Below, one piece after another: positions 4,976 through 24,077 of a stretch of 24,443 bases of DNA (position 1 is its first letter; every line of letters begins with the position of its first letter). Below the pieces are notes generated by a model, which made no database searches, was not told where the DNA came from, and worked only from the letters and a program-made list of their open reading frames with translations. A program made the position numbers and the translations under genes. This stretch comes from a virus. The stretch spans positions 1 through 24,443 of IMG/VR virus record IMGVR_UViG_3300027710_000132. One strand, given 5' to 3'.

Positions 4976-5485
4976 TTAGTTATTATTTCTTTGACTTATT
5001 ATTGGTTCCATTGAGCTTTTAAACACTTCGTTGAACTTAGCTAACTTCTCTAATGTATTTGCAACGTTCTGCTCTAATTTTAACATATCAGCCATAACAT
5101 ATACACCACCTTCTTTACCCGCAATAAACACAAACTTGATTCCATCATCAGTTAATGTACCATCCAATCTAATTTGGTCAGGAAACAATGAAAACCCCGG
5201 TTCAAAGTTTACAATTTGTGAAACTTGTTGTCTAAAATTATCTATAATACCGGAAATTTCATTCTTTTGCTCATCCAATAATTTCATATCAACGTCATCA
5301 GTAGAATTCATTTTAACATCAACATCATTAATGACAAGAATATCATCTTTCATGCTTTGTTCTGGTTGAGGTTCATCTTGTGCCATCTCAACTTGTTCCC
5401 TTAAAATTTTATTTGACGCAGTTGATTCATTGAGTTTCCTCATCATGTTCAACATTTTTTTGTCTAAGTCGTAACTATTTTTCAT
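4976..5485 (-). CDS. Hypothetical protein with helical ends, 169 aa
   Basis: Residues 1-35 form a charged helix (YDLDKKMLNMMRKLNESTAS). Residues 36-75 are acidic and probably disordered, residues about 75-95 are helical, and about 95-135 contain a beta unit (with DGIKFVFIAGKEGGVYVMAD), followed by a final helix. Its start overlaps the 3' end of the amidase-like gene by 11 nt. No family is recognised. A chaperone or assembly role is possible from context, but there is no direct evidence. Confidence 0.75.
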   Translation of the reverse strand: MKNSYDLDKKMLNMMRKLNESTASNKILREQVEMAQDEPQPEQSMKDDILVINDVDVKMNSTDDVDMKLLDEQKNEISGIIDNFRQQVSQIVNFEPGFSLFPDQIRLDGTLTDDGIKFVFIAGKEGGVYVMADMLKLEQNVANTLEKLAKFNEVFKSSMEPIISQRNNN

Positions 5486-6092
5486 TTTTTCTTGGATTGC
5501 TAAAGAATACCCTAAAATTAAAAGAAGGGTTTATATCAGTATAAATACTTGCAAAATTAGATTTACATACAATTCCATTGAAATTTGATGCATTTTCTAA
5601 GTATCCTTGTGATGGCACTGTTTGTTTATATATCTCATGTTTATCACATAAGTGTTCACACAGTTCGGCAAGTGAATTTAATTGTGTTTCACCGTACTTA
5701 TCCCAAAAATAATAGTTTCTCCAATTACGTATGTGTGGCTCAGACCTATACGGGTCTCCAATCCAATTGTGTAATATACCGGTGATTGTGTTTTTGTTTA
5801 ACCACCCCAAGTTTTCGACGGCGATTTTAATTTGTTTCCTATCTATTTTTGGGTTATCAAAGGTATTTGAACTATAGTTGGTGTCAAATAGTTGATAAAC
5901 CATACCAAGCTTAGAAACAACAAAATGGGGTACGTCTTCGTACTTCCCATTTTTGCGATACTTTATCTTATTTATGAAATCGTCGACACGTCTTTGTGTG
6001 TCATAAAGTAAAATCTGCGTTTTTTTAGATTTTCTTTTATGTATGTTAAGTTGATTTTTATCTAACGTTTCTACATTAAAAATTTCTAACAT
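5475..6092 (-). CDS. Amidase_2-fold protein (N-acetylmuramoyl-L-alanine amidase-like) with altered zinc-site residues, 205 aa
   Basis: The layout follows type-2 amidases: a beta strand at 26-32 (QILLYDT), then PHFVVSKLGMVYQLFD (55-70), a core strand with IAVENLGWL (90-98), a helix TQLNSLAELCEHLCDK (136-151) and a terminal GIVCKSNFASIYTDINPSF (173-191). In active enzymes the first zinc ligand is a His in an HHT-like position, here YDT (Tyr30-Asp31). The second is a His near the C-terminal GH motif, here Cys176. The third can be Asp, and Asp186 is kept. It may be inactive and only bind cell wall or act structurally, or it may use altered ligands. There is no signal peptide. It follows the poly-A frameshift site of the preceding gene. 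Confidence 0.6.
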   Translation of the reverse strand: MLEIFNVETLDKNQLNIHKRKSKKTQILLYDTQRRVDDFINKIKYRKNGKYEDVPHFVVSKLGMVYQLFDTNYSSNTFDNPKIDRKQIKIAVENLGWLNKNTITGILHNWIGDPYRSEPHIRNWRNYYFWDKYGETQLNSLAELCEHLCDKHEIYKQTVPSQGYLENASNFNGIVCKSNFASIYTDINPSFNFRVFFSNPRKNEK

Positions 6093-6094
6093 TC

Positions 6095-6199
6095 TTATGA
6101 TTTTTTATCATCAGCTTCCCAATATATGTCACGATATTTTACTGAATTTGACATTTCCTCCGGGTGGTTTTCTATTATTTCTTCCGAAGACTTGGTTAT
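6095..6199 (-). other. Possible -1 frame extension of the 399-aa membrane protein (34 codons)
   Basis: The 399-residue frame ends GAA AAA AAA AAA TAA within a run of 11 A (6209-6199). Shifting back one base at the run continues as ATA ACC AAG TCT and stays open for 34 codons to a TAA at 6097-6095, leaving just 2 nt before the next ATG at 6092. The extension is charged (with SSEEIIENHPEEM and YRDIYWEADDKKS), like the tail it would extend. A programmed frameshift, polymerase slippage or a homopolymer sequencing error would each explain it. Confidence 0.5.
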
Positions 6200-7395
6200 T
6201 TTTTTTTTTCGTCGATTGCGTCATCTACGATATCTAACATTTTATCTAATTCTTTTGAATCTGTTTGATAAATTGGTTCGTCATCTTTGCCTATTGGGTC
6301 TACACCCACATCCCACGCTTCGTCAGGTTCGGGTGACAATTCTTCTAATGCTTCTAACATTTCCAATTCATTAAATTCAGCGATTGCTTGGTCAATTTCT
6401 TCATCAGTTAAATTGAGTTCATCGCTTTCCCAACTTTCAATTTTTTTTAAAGCCTCAGCTTGTTTTTCAAGAATTAAAAGATTATTATCTTCTTCCACTT
6501 CTTTCATATGTTGTGCTTGACGTTGGAAATAATCATTTTTCATTTTGATAAATTCTTCATCATCTTCAACCTTTAATCTATGTTCGCTGTTAGCTAAAGC
6601 ACCAACAGGGTCTTCGCTTTCATCCTCATACCCTCGTATTTCATTTTGAATCTCGCCAATTCTTTTCATACGTTCGGCTATTCTTTTAAATTCAATTTTC
6701 TGTGCTCGTTCCACAATTTCTTCGTCACTTAAAGTCACATCATCTTTTAATGATGCTTTTTGAAGTTTCTCATATTCTTCTTTAGGTTTTGTACGTAATA
6801 AACGTTCTTCAAGTAACGCCAAATCTTCTTCGGTTAACCTAACTCTTGAAATCTCCCCAATTAAATCTGATGCATTAATTTTTTCTATATTTTCTTCTTT
6901 TTTATCATCAACAGGTAATTCTACTTGTTTTTCCGCCTCACTGAATTTTACTAACATGTGAAGAAAAGATAATGAAATTAGTGGTAACATACCACCAGAG
7001 AAGAACGCCAAGAATCGTTTGTGTCCTATGAAGTCCGTAGGCTCCACCCCTGTTATTTCTAACAACGGTGATACAAGCTCAACCCAAGATTTAAACGAAC
7101 TGGCGGTTACATCGATAAATGAATAAGCAAAGAATACATTGCCTATGAATTGTATTAATGTAACAATACCAAATGGGAAGTAAATTTTCTTACCCATATT
7201 TGCCGAAATAGCTGCAAGTGCAGATAACGCTGCAATTTCAATACCAACTGATAGGTAGATTGCCCACGTAAATGGATTTGATATCCCGTACCATTGAGTA
7301 ACATGTGATATTGAAACCACAGCCACTGTAATGATTGGTATCAAAAACGCTAATATGATTACCGTTTTGTAATTCTTATGAAACCAAACTTTCAT
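6196..7395 (-). CDS. Four-helix membrane protein with long acidic cytoplasmic tail, 399 aa
   Basis: Four hydrophobic segments are predicted at about 11-31, 42-66, 72-95 and 126-149. From residue 152 onward the protein is hydrophilic, strongly Glu-rich and helical (with LTEEDLALLEERLLRTKPKE and LTDEEIDQAIAEFNELEMLE), probably a cytoplasmic coiled-coil tail. The stop lies inside an 11-A run, and the -1 frame is open for a further 34 codons, so the natural product may be about 433 residues. The ATG overlaps the stop of the upstream 88-aa membrane gene by 1 nt. The role is unknown; superinfection exclusion, lysis control or membrane tethering of phage factories are guesses only. Confidence 0.75.
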   Translation of the reverse strand: MKVWFHKNYKTVIILAFLIPIITVAVVSISHVTQWYGISNPFTWAIYLSVGIEIAALSALAAISANMGKKIYFPFGIVTLIQFIGNVFFAYSFIDVTASSFKSWVELVSPLLEITGVEPTDFIGHKRFLAFFSGGMLPLISLSFLHMLVKFSEAEKQVELPVDDKKEENIEKINASDLIGEISRVRLTEEDLALLEERLLRTKPKEEYEKLQKASLKDDVTLSDEEIVERAQKIEFKRIAERMKRIGEIQNEIRGYEDESEDPVGALANSEHRLKVEDDEEFIKMKNDYFQRQAQHMKEVEEDNNLLILEKQAEALKKIESWESDELNLTDEEIDQAIAEFNELEMLEALEELSPEPDEAWDVGVDPIGKDDEPIYQTDSKELDKMLDIVDDAIDEKKK

Positions 7396-7661
7396 TATTT
7401 GTTAGATTCTAATTTTTTTATTTCTTCGTCAATCTGTGTTTGTCTTTGCACATCTAAAATTTTTCTATCGGATGCTTGGATTGAACGTTTCTCAGATTTT
7501 AATCCTTCAATTTGCATTTGCTTATTTAAACGACCTTCTAAATCGGTCATTTCTTTTCTAACCTTAGTAATTTCTCTTGTGTCACCACAACTCTTTAAAA
7601 AACCTAATAATGATATCACCAATACAATTATAGTGAATTTTTCTTCGATAATTTTTTTCAT
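7395..7661 (-). CDS. Single-pass membrane protein with coiled-coil domain, 88 aa
   Basis: One hydrophobic helix at about 9-24 (FTIIVLVISLLGFLKSCG) after a short basic start, then about 60 charged residues predicted to form a coiled coil (EITKVRKEMTDLEGRLNKQM). The order of a short N-terminus, an anchor and a soluble helix resembles i-spanin-like lysis proteins but is also common among unrelated phage proteins. Cys25 directly after the hydrophobic stretch could suggest a lipobox, but the preceding residues (FLKS) do not fit well. It is packed between the sigma gene (2 nt) and the larger membrane protein (1-nt overlap). Confidence 0.75.
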   Translation of the reverse strand: MKKIIEEKFTIIVLVISLLGFLKSCGDTREITKVRKEMTDLEGRLNKQMQIEGLKSEKRSIQASDRKILDVQRQTQIDEEIKKLESNK

Positions 7662-7663
7662 GT

Positions 7664-8473
7664 CTATAAATAGTTTAATAGATTGAAACTCTCGTTTCTT
7701 AATTTCTTTATTGCTTTATCTCTTAACTGTCTAATACGTTCTTTGGTACAACCAAACTCATCACCTAAGTCATCCAAATTACATTCGATACCATTTAGTC
7801 CGTAATATTTTTCGATAATAACTTTTTCTCTATCATCAAGTACGTTTAACATTTGAGTTACACGTTTTTTCATTTCTTCCGGTGTGTTGAATATCTCTTC
7901 AGGATTACCCGCATCTTTATTGGGGATTAAATCGATTAATTGGTCTCCGTCCTCATTGATTTCCCTAAACAATCCAATACAATATGGTAACATTGTAGTA
8001 TTTTCATTATTACCATCTGTATAAAACTTGTCAATCTTATTGGTTTCGTTTTTCTTATTCTTTTGAGCTTCCTGAACCAAGTTAGATGGTAGTCTAATTG
8101 TTCTTGCATTATCATTTAATGATGCCATGATAGATTGTTTAACCCACCATACTGCATATGATATAAACTTCAATCCGCTATTGGGGTCAAAACGTTCAGT
8201 TGCTTTAATTAAACCGATATTACCTTCAGATATTAAATCTAATAAGTCCATACCTTGTCCTTGATACATTTTTGCAACGGAAATAACAAATCTTAGATTA
8301 CCCAATACAAGTTCTTCTAATAATTTATCTTTTTCTTTCTTAGTTGTGTTAGAATCAAGTAACAATTTAAAGATTTCGTCTTGTCTTTGATGACTTACGA
8401 TTGGAATTTTACGGATATCTTTAATGTATTGATTAATTTCGTCGGTGCTAATAAGGACGGCAGGTTTTCTCAT
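7664..8473 (-). CDS. Phage sigma-70 family RNA polymerase sigma factor, 269 aa
   Basis: This clear sigma-70 protein redirects host RNA polymerase to phage promoters. Region 1.2 is at 11-38 (INQYIKDIRKIPIV). Region 2 is at about 55-125, with LGNLRFVISVAKMYQGQGMD, DLISEGNIGLIKATERFD and FISYAVWWVKQSIMASL, including the -10 recognition helix. Region 3 is short and divergent (about 135-195). Region 4 is at about 205-262, with the helix-turn-helix LDDLGDEFGCTKERIRQLRD. It looks like the short primary sigma of Bacteroidota but is slightly shorter, mainly in region 3. A candidate promoter and a palindrome lie upstream, so it may be regulated separately. It probably drives middle or late transcription; which promoters it reads is unknown. 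Confidence 0.95.
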   Translation of the reverse strand: MRKPAVLISTDEINQYIKDIRKIPIVSHQRQDEIFKLLLDSNTTKKEKDKLLEELVLGNLRFVISVAKMYQGQGMDLLDLISEGNIGLIKATERFDPNSGLKFISYAVWWVKQSIMASLNDNARTIRLPSNLVQEAQKNKKNETNKIDKFYTDGNNENTTMLPYCIGLFREINEDGDQLIDLIPNKDAGNPEEIFNTPEEMKKRVTQMLNVLDDREKVIIEKYYGLNGIECNLDDLGDEFGCTKERIRQLRDKAIKKLRNESFNLLNYL

Positions 8474-13077: not shown

Positions 13078-13788
13078 TTACTCGTCATATAAAGAATTCA
13101 TGTCGCTATTTCTCATAAATTTTGCCTTATTAATTTTAGTAAGACTTTCTGTAATAGCGTCTAATTCTTTTTGTAGTTTTTCATTTAGTCCTTTTAGACG
13201 AATTATCTCCGTTTCGTCTATTTTAACGATTTCTTTGATAACTTCAATCGGCACCTCTTTGATAACCTCTTTAATAACTTCGACGGGAACTTCTTTGATT
13301 ACTTCCCTAATAACTTCAATGGGTACCTCTTTAATTACCTCAATCGGTACTTCTTTTATTATGGTTTTAGTCTTTGACTCACCCGGTACTTCTTTGATAA
13401 CCTCAACCTCAATAGGTACTTCTTTGACGACCTCGACCGTAACTTCTTTAATTATTTCCTTAATGACTTCGACTTCGACAAAGACTTCTTTGATGACTTC
13501 CTTAATAACTTCGACCGGTACCTCTCTAACAACTTCCCTAATAACCTCAATTGGTACTTCCACAAGCTTTTCAACTGTGATTTCAACGATTTTTTCGACT
13601 TCCTTAATGACTTCTTTTTCAATTGTTACCTCCTTTCCTTTTATATGTGATGGGGTCTCACCATACTTTAAAATTGTGAAACCCCTATTGAATGTTTCTT
13701 TTGCTTTTTTATCTAAGTCTTGAACGTTATTTAATTCACAATATTGTATGAATTCTTTATCCAAGGTTAAGGTGTGCTTCTTTACCAT
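13078..13788 (-). CDS. Val/Glu/Lys tetrapeptide-repeat protein, 236 aa
   Basis: Residues 1-50 look like a small ordered domain (LTLDKEFIQYCELNNVQDLD, NRGFTILKYG). Residues about 53-189 are built of four-residue units of the type IKEV, PIEV, IREV and PVEV, roughly 30 in a row, interrupted once by PGESKTKT (135-142). Residues 190-236 form a charged helix (LKGLNEKLQKELDAI). Such alternating hydrophobic and charged repeats could form a long beta or fibrous rod, or a charged tether. The start overlaps the 3' end of the SbcD-like gene by 32 nt. The function is unknown. Confidence 0.8.
   Translation of the reverse strand: MVKKHTLTLDKEFIQYCELNNVQDLDKKAKETFNRGFTILKYGETPSHIKGKEVTIEKEVIKEVEKIVEITVEKLVEVPIEVIREVVREVPVEVIKEVIKEVFVEVEVIKEIIKEVTVEVVKEVPIEVEVIKEVPGESKTKTIIKEVPIEVIKEVPIEVIREVIKEVPVEVIKEVIKEVPIEVIKEIVKIDETEIIRLKGLNEKLQKELDAITESLTKINKAKFMRNSDMNSLYDE
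13222..13632. repeat. Coding tandem repeat of 12-bp units
   Basis: This stretch encodes about 30 successive four-residue units (IKEV/PIEV type) of the repeat protein. Units are conserved at protein level but differ at many third codon positions, so the DNA repeat is imperfect. That suggests the repeat is old and maintained by selection on the protein rather than freshly expanded. Confidence 0.85.
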
Positions 13789-19268: not shown

Positions 19269-22200
19269 TCAACCTGGTGGAAGTGGGTCACCACCACCGC
19301 CACTAGTCGTACATTCACTTAAGTCTGTATTAGTAATTGTTCCTAACAATTCTAAATTATCACCAGTATAGAATGTTCTTCTATGTGCCCCGTAGGAATC
19401 AACAAAATACCAATCACCTTGCATAAATGTTCCAAGATTTTCCCAATTTCCTGAAACATTAAAGGTTGTGTATTTGTAAGTATCATTTAACACGTATGAT
19501 TGATATGGTTCAGACGCGGAGTTTGCGTTGGCACATGTTGTATAATAAACATCAGATAATTGCCAACATTCTGAGTTATCTCCTGTTGCAACTTCATCCG
19601 TTGTATTATATTCTGATGAACATGGATTATTATCAATTTTTAGTTGATATTCAGTCCCATTTATACAATATGGTGAACCCGAATCAACCCAATTAGGTGT
19701 GGTGATTGGTTCTGAAGTTAACATTGACGTTATTCCTGAGAATGTTAGAGTTCCACCTGTTCCATTACTAAATTGATTTCCTGTAAAGTATGAATTAGTA
19801 TTTTCATATATATCGTATTGGTAAACAGTACCATTATCACATTCCCATCTTGGCCCACGAGATGTTAAATAAGTAGGTTCAGTCGATGGTGGTGGAGTTG
19901 GCGTCAGTGATGGTGTCATTGATAATGATGGTACTGGTGTGCTACATGGTGTCCAGTCTTGTATAATTCCACTACTATTAATTGATGCTACCATTGTAAA
20001 GTTACCTGAAGCTCCTTGTATTTTAATTGCATACCATTTACCACCACCATCAGGTGTTGCACCATTGGTTGCTACATTACTAGTGTATAATTGATATGTT
20101 GTTCCTGATGTGATACTTGTTTCATCTACATAAAGGTTACCACTATTTAATTGAGTATATCCAAGATTTATAGCTAATTGTTGTTCGTCTACACCACATA
20201 CTTCCGACTTAATTGTTGTTAAATCAACTGTATCTCTTGTCCACGCAGTAACATATGCGGTTCTATTTTCAGGTGGTGGTGTCACTTCAGGACAACCATT
20301 GATACTTGGTGAAACGGCATCAACATCATACTTAGTTCCATTAGGGTCGGGGTCCACGGTAAATGTATTTCCCGCAGCATAATAGGTTTCAGAACTTCCC
20401 ACTACTCTCTGTCCGCTAGTAAATGTTCCCGGTGGTTTAAGTATTGAATAAACATCAGAACCACCTGCACAAGGTGATAATTGATAATAAACAGGACTTA
20501 ATGAACCGTCGATAATTGTCACTTCATTTGAGGTGGACAATACCGTTCCAGAGGCACTTCCACTTCTAAGTTCTAATTTAAATTTCTCAGTACCTTCGGT
20601 TAATTGGTCTTCAGCTAATGAGAATGAATATTCTTGTCCCGATTGATTCAATGTAATTGTTGATGGAAAATTATTTTGAAAGTCATTTAAATCAACCGTT
20701 CCAGATGTGCTTAATATGGTGATATAAAGCGTTTGAGGGAATGAAATATTCGCGGCAGTTACTGTTGCAGTAAATGCACCTCCTAAGTCATCCCGACTAT
20801 CTGGACTTAGACTTATACCATATGATGGTGTTGGACCAGGTGTGGCTGACGGAGTTGATGTCATTGTCATTGTCATCGTTGGTGTCATCGATGGTGTCAT
20901 TGTCATTGTCATCGTTGGTGTCTGAGTAGGTGTCATCGTCATCGATGGTGTTGGTCCAAGTGTAGTTGACGGAGTTGGTGTCATCGTCATCGATGGTGTT
21001 GGTGCAAGTGTTGTTGACGGAGTTGGTGTCATTGTCATTGTCGATGTCTGAGTTGGCGTCATCGTCATTGTCATTGTTGGCGTCATCGTCATTGACGGTG
21101 TCGGTAACGGTGTAACCGCATCGTATGTAATTGGATAATATAATGGTGACCCCATAAAGAAATTAAATGAATTCACTATGGTACAACTATTTGGTCCATA
21201 TTTATATGACTTGAATTTAATTTTTTCATTACCATTATCATCAGTAAAGAATTCATACGATAATAACGGTCCATTTGTTGTGCCCGTTAATGCTGAATTG
21301 CCAATACTATTACCATAAACCGTATTTTTACCAACATTATCAATATTAAACCCAAAATTGTTGTTTATGTAATTAATTGCACCAACAATTGCATCTTTCC
21401 ATAATATATGTAATGCGTCTAAGTCAATACAATAAGTACTATCATACGCATCAGCACCTTCCGCTCCAACATCTAAAGTATTTCCCGCTGTTCCACAATA
21501 TAAACTTGCTCGTTTGGGTGATGTTGTTGTGCTTGATGTTGTTCCACTTAAAACTACATATGTTGATGTGTCACTTGTGTTTCCTGAGTACTTAACCCCA
21601 TCAATTTCAAATGTTGGGAATATTCTTATATAACCATCTTTATTTGAATCGCCAAATTGTAGTTGAAATCCTGTGCTAACATCCGTGATGATTTCATTAA
21701 CGTATGTTCTAAATCCAATTTCAGGATAAACATCATCAATAATTTCAACTAATTGACATGGCTTTCTGTATTTAAATTTCGAACGACCTAATTTACCGTT
21801 CTCAATAACGTTACCACCAGTCCATAATGTGGTTGCGGGGATAAATTGTTCTACAACTTGCACCCAATATGGACTCATTTTGTTGACAAACTCATTAAGG
21901 GTTATAAAATCATATGGTACTTCTACCGTACTAACATAAGCATTGTAGACATCTTCTAAGCTAATGTATGTCTTTTCGTATCTAACTGAGTGTGAATTTT
22001 TGATGACGTTTGATAATACATTATCAATAAATTCTGCGAATGTTATGCCTGTTTGTGGTGTTAATCCACCAAAATTAACGGTACCATTCTTTGATTGTCT
22101 CCAAATATCATAATCAATTGTTTGTGATGGTGATAAGTAAACGCTAATATTTTTTCTATTTAATATTAATGACGATTCTTGGTCATTAGAACTGTTTTTG

Positions 22201-24077
22201 ATTTTTAAATTATCAACTTTGGATTCTAAGTCAAAACCATAATCTAAGCCGGGTAAATTTCTAAAAACATCAAAGTAATCTTCACCGTAAGTATAGGGTG
22301 CATTTTTGGTTTTGGTAAATTTTAATCTACCCGTTAACTGTGAATTCGCTTCATCTAAGATTAATGGTGACCGGTGCTGTAATGTTATGTCATACCAACC
22401 TGAACCTTTTTGGAAATATAAATTACCGTTTGAGGTATACGCTTTTCTTGGTAAACCATTCTCATCAATTGGATATTCGTCTCTTGTTAATGCACTTGAC
22501 GAAGTTGTTGTACCTGTCAAATATGTGTATGTACTCGCAGAAAAACCTGTAATTACAAAATCTGTTTTAATGTCATTAATAACATCATACAAATCATCCT
22601 CTAATGTTGATATGTTTGGTAATTTTGTTACCTCATAAACATACTCATTGATTTTAATCATTGGCTCCGGCGCACCCAAGAATTTTAAAAAGAATTCTAA
22701 AGTTTTACGTGTACCTTTTGACTTATATAATTGAGCTAAGTTAATTAAAATTCTTCTATAGAATTCGTATTCTGATTCAATTAAATTCTTACCAACAGCA
22801 ACACCTGAATAGTTACTATCTTGTCTTGTGTAAAGAATATCGTTTAAACTTTTCTCATCGAAAAGATTTACGGTATCAAGTCCCAAGTTTTGTGACAAGT
22901 TTTTTAACAACATGTCAGGTATGTTATTGATAGCATCGTAACTCACATGTCTCATGAACGCAATGTTATCAATGTATTTTTTTACACTATCAAAGCTTTG
23001 ACCATATAATTGGAATACGGACTCAGCTCTTTTATCTTCCGTGTCGAATTCAAATAGTTGTGGTGATGTTAAGAATCTAACAATTAAATTAGACTTATAA
23101 TCATCAATCTCATCCGATAAATCAAATAAGCTTTGAACAAATTGATTGTATTCAATACCCACAATTTGTGGATTCCAACCATCTTTTGATACCGGCCATG
23201 ATACGTTAACACCAACTAAATCAGTTGCACTGTTATCGTAATTGTCTCTTGGTACTCTGAAACTTGAAGTGTATATTGGATTTGATTCTCTATTAAGTAA
23301 TAATTCCTCAAGGTCATCTAAATTTTTAAAGAATTCCTCAATGATGCTATCATTTGGTTTAATAACATAATCAAAATTTACATCAGTGTATCCACTAAAT
23401 AAATTACCCTCAACTTCTAACGTTAAAACAAAGTTATTATCAAAAGTTGGTTCGGTATAATTTGTGATGTTGTATGAAACACCTTGATATATTAACACAT
23501 AATTTTTAAACGCTGAATAAAAATCTCTAACAGGGTTATCGGTCTCAATTATGACATTGCTATTAGGCTTTGTTAATATAATTTCAAAAGGATTGTAAAA
23601 AATTGATTGTTGTGATTCGAATTGAGTAATTTTAGTTACACTATCATATGAAATATTCTCCGCAGTATAGTTTGTTGTTTTTGTTACTGTTGAGCTATCA
23701 GCTAATAACGACGCAGGAAACTTAGCAATTATTCTACCAAGTGAAATGTTTATTCTTTCTTTTAATGAACCAAATAATGAACGTCCCGCATCACTTCTTG
23801 ATGGTCTAAACTTAATAACATCTTTTGTTGTTTTTGATGTATTTGTTTTTGGTGCATTAGTTTCTTCTTTTAAAGTGTCTAACGTTAAGAAATCAGAAAA
23901 TGGTACGCTTGAAAAACTTTTACTATCTTTTTCAGGTGTTGCTCTGTCGAGTGCAAAGTTGGTATTAGTCAATTGACTACTACCATCGGTAATTTGAATA
24001 CCGACTAAATTGTCACTAAACGTTTGTGCCCCACTAGCGGCCTGACTCGGAACTTTATACTTAACTACTTTTGCCAT
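19269..24077 (-). CDS. Giant baseplate-like protein fused to adhesin-like modules, 1602 aa
   Basis: Residues 1 to about 985 form the conserved part. Around 440-475 lies YRRILINLAQLYKSKGTRKT followed by LEFFLKFLGAPEP, resembling the tail-protein domain of baseplate proteins such as P2 gpI. Residues about 989-1085 are a low-complexity linker of TPSMTMTPT-type units. A beta-sandwich of Calx-beta type follows at about 1088-1190 (with FSLAEDQLTEGTEKFKLELR). Further Cys-containing beta modules follow, then a second Pro/Ser/Thr linker near 1378-1400 and a last module of about 200 residues with six Cys, ending GGGGDPLPPG. The N-terminal part probably sits in the baseplate while the C-terminal modules are exposed and bind host surface polymers. 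Its ATG overlaps the stop of the previous gene by 1 nt. Confidence 0.75.
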   Translation of the reverse strand: MAKVVKYKVPSQAASGAQTFSDNLVGIQITDGSSQLTNTNFALDRATPEKDSKSFSSVPFSDFLTLDTLKEETNAPKTNTSKTTKDVIKFRPSRSDAGRSLFGSLKERINISLGRIIAKFPASLLADSSTVTKTTNYTAENISYDSVTKITQFESQQSIFYNPFEIILTKPNSNVIIETDNPVRDFYSAFKNYVLIYQGVSYNITNYTEPTFDNNFVLTLEVEGNLFSGYTDVNFDYVIKPNDSIIEEFFKNLDDLEELLLNRESNPIYTSSFRVPRDNYDNSATDLVGVNVSWPVSKDGWNPQIVGIEYNQFVQSLFDLSDEIDDYKSNLIVRFLTSPQLFEFDTEDKRAESVFQLYGQSFDSVKKYIDNIAFMRHVSYDAINNIPDMLLKNLSQNLGLDTVNLFDEKSLNDILYTRQDSNYSGVAVGKNLIESEYEFYRRILINLAQLYKSKGTRKTLEFFLKFLGAPEPMIKINEYVYEVTKLPNISTLEDDLYDVINDIKTDFVITGFSASTYTYLTGTTTSSSALTRDEYPIDENGLPRKAYTSNGNLYFQKGSGWYDITLQHRSPLILDEANSQLTGRLKFTKTKNAPYTYGEDYFDVFRNLPGLDYGFDLESKVDNLKIKNSSNDQESSLILNRKNISVYLSPSQTIDYDIWRQSKNGTVNFGGLTPQTGITFAEFIDNVLSNVIKNSHSVRYEKTYISLEDVYNAYVSTVEVPYDFITLNEFVNKMSPYWVQVVEQFIPATTLWTGGNVIENGKLGRSKFKYRKPCQLVEIIDDVYPEIGFRTYVNEIITDVSTGFQLQFGDSNKDGYIRIFPTFEIDGVKYSGNTSDTSTYVVLSGTTSSTTTSPKRASLYCGTAGNTLDVGAEGADAYDSTYCIDLDALHILWKDAIVGAINYINNNFGFNIDNVGKNTVYGNSIGNSALTGTTNGPLLSYEFFTDDNGNEKIKFKSYKYGPNSCTIVNSFNFFMGSPLYYPITYDAVTPLPTPSMTMTPTMTMTMTPTQTSTMTMTPTPSTTLAPTPSMTMTPTPSTTLGPTPSMTMTPTQTPTMTMTMTPSMTPTMTMTMTSTPSATPGPTPSYGISLSPDSRDDLGGAFTATVTAANISFPQTLYITILSTSGTVDLNDFQNNFPSTITLNQSGQEYSFSLAEDQLTEGTEKFKLELRSGSASGTVLSTSNEVTIIDGSLSPVYYQLSPCAGGSDVYSILKPPGTFTSGQRVVGSSETYYAAGNTFTVDPDPNGTKYDVDAVSPSINGCPEVTPPPENRTAYVTAWTRDTVDLTTIKSEVCGVDEQQLAINLGYTQLNSGNLYVDETSITSGTTYQLYTSNVATNGATPDGGGKWYAIKIQGASGNFTMVASINSSGIIQDWTPCSTPVPSLSMTPSLTPTPPPSTEPTYLTSRGPRWECDNGTVYQYDIYENTNSYFTGNQFSNGTGGTLTFSGITSMLTSEPITTPNWVDSGSPYCINGTEYQLKIDNNPCSSEYNTTDEVATGDNSECWQLSDVYYTTCANANSASEPYQSYVLNDTYKYTTFNVSGNWENLGTFMQGDWYFVDSYGAHRRTFYTGDNLELLGTITNTDLSECTTSGGGGDPLPPG
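20822..21112. repeat. Low-complexity coding repeat (Thr/Pro/Met/Ser linker)
   Basis: About 97 codons encode units such as PTPSMTMTPT and TMTMTPS. On the plus strand the DNA shows recurring GTCATTGTCATCG-type segments. It links the baseplate-like and adhesin-like parts of the giant protein. Repeats like this can expand or contract by slippage and may vary between related phages. Confidence 0.9.

Follow-up and report, generated by a model that had tools for sequence, protein, structure and literature searches.

The phage tail assembly chaperone G/GT owes a C-terminal extension to conserved -1 ribosomal frameshifting. RNA polymerase can likewise open another reading frame, by slipping on a homopolymer. 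In many bacteria transcriptional slippage becomes important at about nine A's, a threshold of 9 nt (PMC1088944), and a reporter study with E. coli RNA polymerase found no slippage below eight A's and, among the poly(A) runs tested, none by deletion (PMC6260861). The dnaX gene of Thermus thermophilus has a sense-strand run of A9-A10 and gives a long and a short form from one gene (PMC1088944, PMC3711429), and in Shigella spa13/spa32 slippage lengthens the C-terminus by a stretch whose codons overlap the beginning of the following gene (PMC5009743). Three products from one site have been described for paramyxoviruses, together with switching of the default frame (PMC8204654), and for Ebola (PMC5009743). 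In these P/V/W and GP/sGP/ssGP systems, a homopolymer-containing site joins a common N-terminus to three C-termini in three frames. Here we describe a phage gene with the same layout. Judged from its sequence and those of its relatives, it probably carries a programmed slippage site where RNA polymerase, slipping on A9-A11, gives one membrane protein three alternative C-termini. Programmed transcriptional slippage itself is already known; in the open-access literature searched, we met no three-tail version in a DNA phage.

The DNA analysed (hereafter the window) is a phage contig of 24,443 bases from IMG/VR. A co-oriented block of minus-strand genes within it encodes, in order, a DUF6576 protein, a phage RNA polymerase sigma factor (7664..8473, minus strand; PF04542 and PF04545; PHROG 351), an 88-aa protein (7395..7661, minus strand), a membrane protein of 399 aa in the default frame, and an Amidase_2 protein (5475..6092, minus strand; PF01510, E=6e-7). 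The 88-aa gene overlaps the start of the membrane-protein gene and encodes an N-terminal hydrophobic helix followed by a charged, coiled-coil-like region. The membrane-protein ORF (7395..6196, minus strand) ends in GAC GAA AAA AAA AAA TAA, with a run of exactly 11 A on the sense strand (6209..6199). As the initial annotation had reported, the default-frame TAA (6198..6196) directly follows the run and closes a short form ending ...DEKKK*, the -1 frame stays open for about 34 codons (KKKITKSSEEIIENHPEEMSNSVKYRDIYWEADDKKS) up to a TAA at 6097..6095, 2 nt ahead of the amidase ATG at 6092, and the 103 nt separating this ATG from the annotated stop (6093-6195) hold no annotated gene. With one A extra, this -1 frame (6095..6198, minus strand) would supply an acidic tail containing the motif IYWEADD. 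The initial annotation had also proposed that slippage would give two forms of the protein. The homologues described below support the slippage site, but the predicted forms number three, since the +1 frame, then overlooked, is open as well: its 26 codons past the run (KKKNNQVFGRNNRKPPGGNVKFSKIS) reach a TGA at 6131..6129 and would encode, once an A is lost or two are gained, a basic tail (6129..6200, minus strand) ending in GGNVKFSKIS*. Elsewhere on the minus strand of the window, positions 13078-13788 encode a 236-aa protein made mostly of near-repeats such as VPIEVIKEV, and positions 19269-24077 a protein of 1602 aa that looks structural and contains long TPTPTMTMTPT tracts; five relatives (L008, L025, L045, L053, L059) have comparable TPTPT tracts in their acidic tails.

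Relatives of the gene were collected from IMG/VR down to approximately 50% full-length identity, and broader searches turned up 80 loci that share its membrane domain and whose 3' ends fall into three states. The slip state comprises 37 distinct sequences of the gene with a complete 3' end. All 37 have a run of A9-A11, mostly A10 and never shorter than A9, with a 0-frame stop 0-4 codons on and a -1 ORF of 32-151 codons. In 35 of the 37, the -1 ORF ends no more than 4 nt from the start of the next gene or overlaps it by 32-38 nt; the exceptions are L055, with a stop 21 nt short, and L019, for which our script took another ATG as the next-gene start. The 32-38 nt overlap of the acidic tail with the amidase start is the usual arrangement, and the window and three close relatives stop 1-4 nt before it. 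The fused state consists of four scattered sequences (L038, L041, L046, L048), and the short state of one supported clade, in which the gene, only 224-265 aa long, stops where the amidase gene starts. An alignment of homologues had been suggested to learn whether the extension is fused in frame or a slippery run is retained, and the four fused sequences do both, carrying the long tail in the default frame and still an A10 run. In 376 kb of flanking sequence, A-runs of at least 10 were almost restricted to the slip site. A run of about ten A's thus appears to have been kept over long evolutionary time, apparently for slippage. A pattern scan of bacterial genomes found no relative, and the membrane domain has a distant homologue, 35% identical, in L016 (LR756500.1), a 462-kb uncultured phage, where a coiled-coil tail ends in frame at the ATG of the next gene and no comparable tail structure is present.

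The same comparison bears on the plain explanation put forward at the outset, that the error-prone homopolymer was misread or misassembled and the true gene is one ORF of 433 aa. Exactly A11+TAA is also present in three relatives (86-96% identical) that come from other metagenomes, and no indel interrupts the alignment between the run and the -1 stop. All diverged slip-state relatives share the out-of-frame A9-A11 run and a conserved -1 extension; the out-of-frame state is conserved in 37 distinct sequences, and an error would leave the selection on the +1 frame (see below) unexplained. With the same end in other metagenomes and the out-of-frame state conserved, the homopolymer observation is not a sequencing error; the single-ORF reading is refuted and its probability is negligible.

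The -1 frame has the features of a coding sequence. In 26 pairwise frame-agnostic alignments, all indels in the -1 tails were multiples of three. Across the first 44 codons of 29 representative relatives, no stop was observed in the 1201 -1 codons examined, and 0-frame stops amounted to 5-10% throughout. Past the +1 stop, substitutions numbered 99/108/321 at -1 codon positions 1/2/3. The tails share a recurring motif, LYWE[KS]DDxNPNQVIYDLENNxTIIP, of which the window retains IYWEADD. By alignment, substitution pattern and stop depletion, we judge that the -1 tail is coding and under selection. An internal ATG of the -1 frame was considered as the start of a separate gene and rejected, the codon being ACG in L003 and L004. 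Ending as it does at the start of the amidase gene, the acidic tail may have a second role in translational coupling, by analogy with the arrangement reviewed for Shigella spa13/spa32 (PMC5009743).

In most lineages the basic tail is approximately 20-25 codons long; its terminal motifs include GNVKFSRIS*, PNVRINRF*, NIRFDRIS* and KLWFGxWG. Where the two tails overlap, substitutions by -1 codon position were 122/210/172, most of them at -1 position 2, which is +1 position 3. In disjoint pairs, the counts were 47/35 in the overlap vs 22/76 in the stretch after the +1 stop (Fisher p=3e-6). Stops in the +1 frame occurred at 2% in codons 1-18 and at 11-14% in codons 19-44 of the 29 representative relatives. 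A synonymous-shuffle null for +1 conservation gave z ~10, a value inflated by shared ancestry, which this null ignores, so the case for the +1 frame is carried by the substitution positions and the stop densities. Because +1 third positions change most where the tails overlap, these data argue that the +1 tail is coding too and under selection. It has been lost in L041 and is almost missing from L008 and L026. We also considered that the two tails belong to small overlapping genes that initiate independently and are unfused to the membrane protein. An ATG, GTG or TTG does precede the run in the +1 frame of 25/37 relatives, the window included, and could allow separate initiation there; no start precedes it in the other 12 or, for the -1 frame, in 36/37, and some homologues carry the long or the basic tail as an in-frame part of their default product. 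Separate genes are therefore extremely unlikely.

A scan with the acidic tail revealed that this cytoplasmic region, with its run and tails, also sits on another membrane domain, made of hydrophobic segments around a coiled coil. This alternative anchor occupies the corresponding locus, flanked by the sigma-factor and amidase genes, and replaces both the four-helix domain of the window protein and the 88-aa protein, whose gene is absent from these relatives. In two of them, L114 and L116, residues 72-154 in the coiled coil gave a weak Rz-like spanin match (E ~0.005-0.01), and the helix plus coiled-coil layout of the window 88-aa protein resembles this spanin-like part. Across both anchors, the genomic default is the stub in most phages. 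The long tail is the default in L038, L041, L046 and L048 and, on the alternative anchor, in L094-096/L162; the basic tail is the default in one contig only (L113 = L124), also on the alternative anchor. Each of the three frames is thus the default somewhere, yet the run is retained, in most cases with all three tails. The frame order is constant on both anchors, the acidic tail lying in the -1 and the basic tail in the +1 frame relative to the stub.

The contigs L113/L124 and L114/L115 are 98.7% identical over 4 kb and have a single gap at the slip run, A10 vs A11, which switches the default tail between basic and stub. Such a pair is what would be expected if replication slippage varied the run between virions, each genome then making one form. 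Run length is uniform within every other near-identical group (of 12, 6, 5 and 3 contigs, and several pairs), and the one-A difference in the sole discordant pair may be an assembly error. As run length is common to near-identical contigs, one pair apart, DNA-level phase variation is very unlikely.

We then weighed a slip in transcription against one in translation. Every slip-state run contains the in-phase X_XXY_YYZ heptamer A_AAA_AAA, on which E. coli ribosomes slip well by -1, and for this reason the -1 product alone needs no polymerase slippage. Poly-A heptamers are also common in genes with programmed frameshifting (PMC3711429). Programmed ribosomal frameshifting would have ribosomes slip on the AAA codons by -1, or less often by +1, on an unaltered mRNA. 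Seven A's would suffice for this, yet the minimum seen is nine, in agreement with the bacterial threshold for transcriptional slippage (PMC1088944), and the codon phase at the start of the run varies (GAA vs TTA, GTA or ATA). A stimulatory stem-loop or pseudoknot is common at such sites and not obligatory; here pseudoknot-free folding showed no shared downstream RNA structure (mean z -0.37). Nor would ribosomal slippage readily account for selection on both the -1 and the +1 tails or for a default frame that swaps between phages. We consider it less likely, but the main rival. The runs of at least 9 A, their varying phase, the interchangeable default, the two selected frames and the missing conserved RNA structure lead us to favour slippage in transcription rather than translation as the better supported reading. 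Polymerase slippage fits because it puts the downstream sequence in all three phases. The locus combines a long conserved homopolymer with a selected alternative-frame product, as expected for transcriptional slippage, and shares with P/V/W-like systems a conserved outcome in all three frames (L008 and L026 excepted) and a default that switches across lineages at a persisting site.

Under polymerase slippage, RNA polymerase would slip on A9-A11 and generate a pool of mRNAs with runs of differing length. Unslipped mRNA would give the stub (...KKK*), one A extra the long acidic tail reaching or overlapping the start of the amidase gene, and one A fewer or two more the short basic tail. Given the lack of deletion slippage by E. 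coli RNA polymerase (PMC6260861), insertion of two A's may be required for the +1 form. Nine large contigs of relatives lacked a multi-subunit phage RNA polymerase, and a sigma-factor gene lies next to the site, so the enzyme is most likely the host RNA polymerase with the phage sigma factor. All three forms would be made, their tails would bind different partners, and the -1 form might in addition couple its translation to that of the amidase.

Residues 1-152 of the protein are predicted to form a four-helix membrane domain, and the rest a charged cytoplasmic linker. AF2 modelled residues 1-161 as all helical (pLDDT 77) and the whole protein poorly (pLDDT 47). The membrane domain belongs to no Pfam or PHROG family, had neither a sequence nor a fold match in the PDB, and retrieved only uncharacterised phage proteins in a BFVD structural search. 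Since an amidase gene follows, we considered a holin or other lysis protein; neither Pfam nor PHROG searches gave a lysis family, structural comparison matched no named protein significantly, and the amidase neighbour is only circumstantial as a hint of a lysis role. The TacA-type antitoxin model PF08681 matched the protein in several relatives (5/9 members, best E=4e-8). With the second anchor, it was the C-terminal half of the model that matched, in the cytoplasmic linker (E=6e-5; for example L114 residues 267-308). As a lead from these matches, the linker might mimic an antitoxin and, tethered to the membrane, bind GNAT toxins of the host.

Another cassette occurs outside the window, in type-2 relatives (L138-L200), where A9-A11 lies in the middle of another membrane-protein gene and the default frame is the long one. 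There the -1 frame stops at once (KKKRN*) and the +1 frame leads to a conserved basic tail, KLIPLQ[QR][MIL]W[KR]KMK*. Over 247 non-independent pairs, the default codon positions had 848/390/362 substitutions, with the +1 third position changing most. In L167 and L170, the run is A9, the default stops at KKKSLNLI*, and the -1 frame runs on into the DGDGSIDGYDTDGDG domain, which is in frame in relatives. With at least two unrelated anchors at one locus and an independent second cassette with a different selected +1 tail (KLIPLQQMWKKMK) in further relatives, tri-frame tail cassettes might be a modular device of large aquatic phages, a proposal on which we find the balance even. If true, polymerase slippage would fix the ratios of membrane-anchored isoforms in DNA phages.

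Gene callers give a truncated gene and an intergenic gap at this locus, so the two selected tails are invisible in annotations. Polymerase slippage predicts precise peptides to be sought in metaproteomes and metatranscriptomes, with junctions ITKSSEEIIENHPEEMSNSVK for the acidic and PPGGNVK for the basic tail. Our non-exhaustive search of the open-access literature retrieved no report of a DNA phage gene with two selected alternative frames past one homopolymer besides the default stop, nor of one in which every frame serves as default. The closest phage parallel, G/GT, is also a conserved frameshift giving a C-terminal extension; it concerns another gene and site, encodes a tail-assembly protein, has two products and is ribosomal. 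In T. thermophilus dnaX, by contrast with the phage gene, the default is long and the alternative product truncated, and selected alternative tails have not been described. For Shigella spa13/spa32, a third selected tail has not been described, and the genes are unrelated. Paramyxoviruses and Ebola offer the nearest likeness, the former also in the evolutionary switching of the genomic default frame. They differ as RNA viruses that use an RNA-dependent RNA polymerase, whereas the gene described here belongs to a tailed DNA phage, would probably be read by the host RNA polymerase on A9-A11 and would yield membrane-anchored products. If slippage occurs as the sequences suggest, decoding by polymerase slippage extends from paramyxoviruses and Ebola to uncultured large phages.
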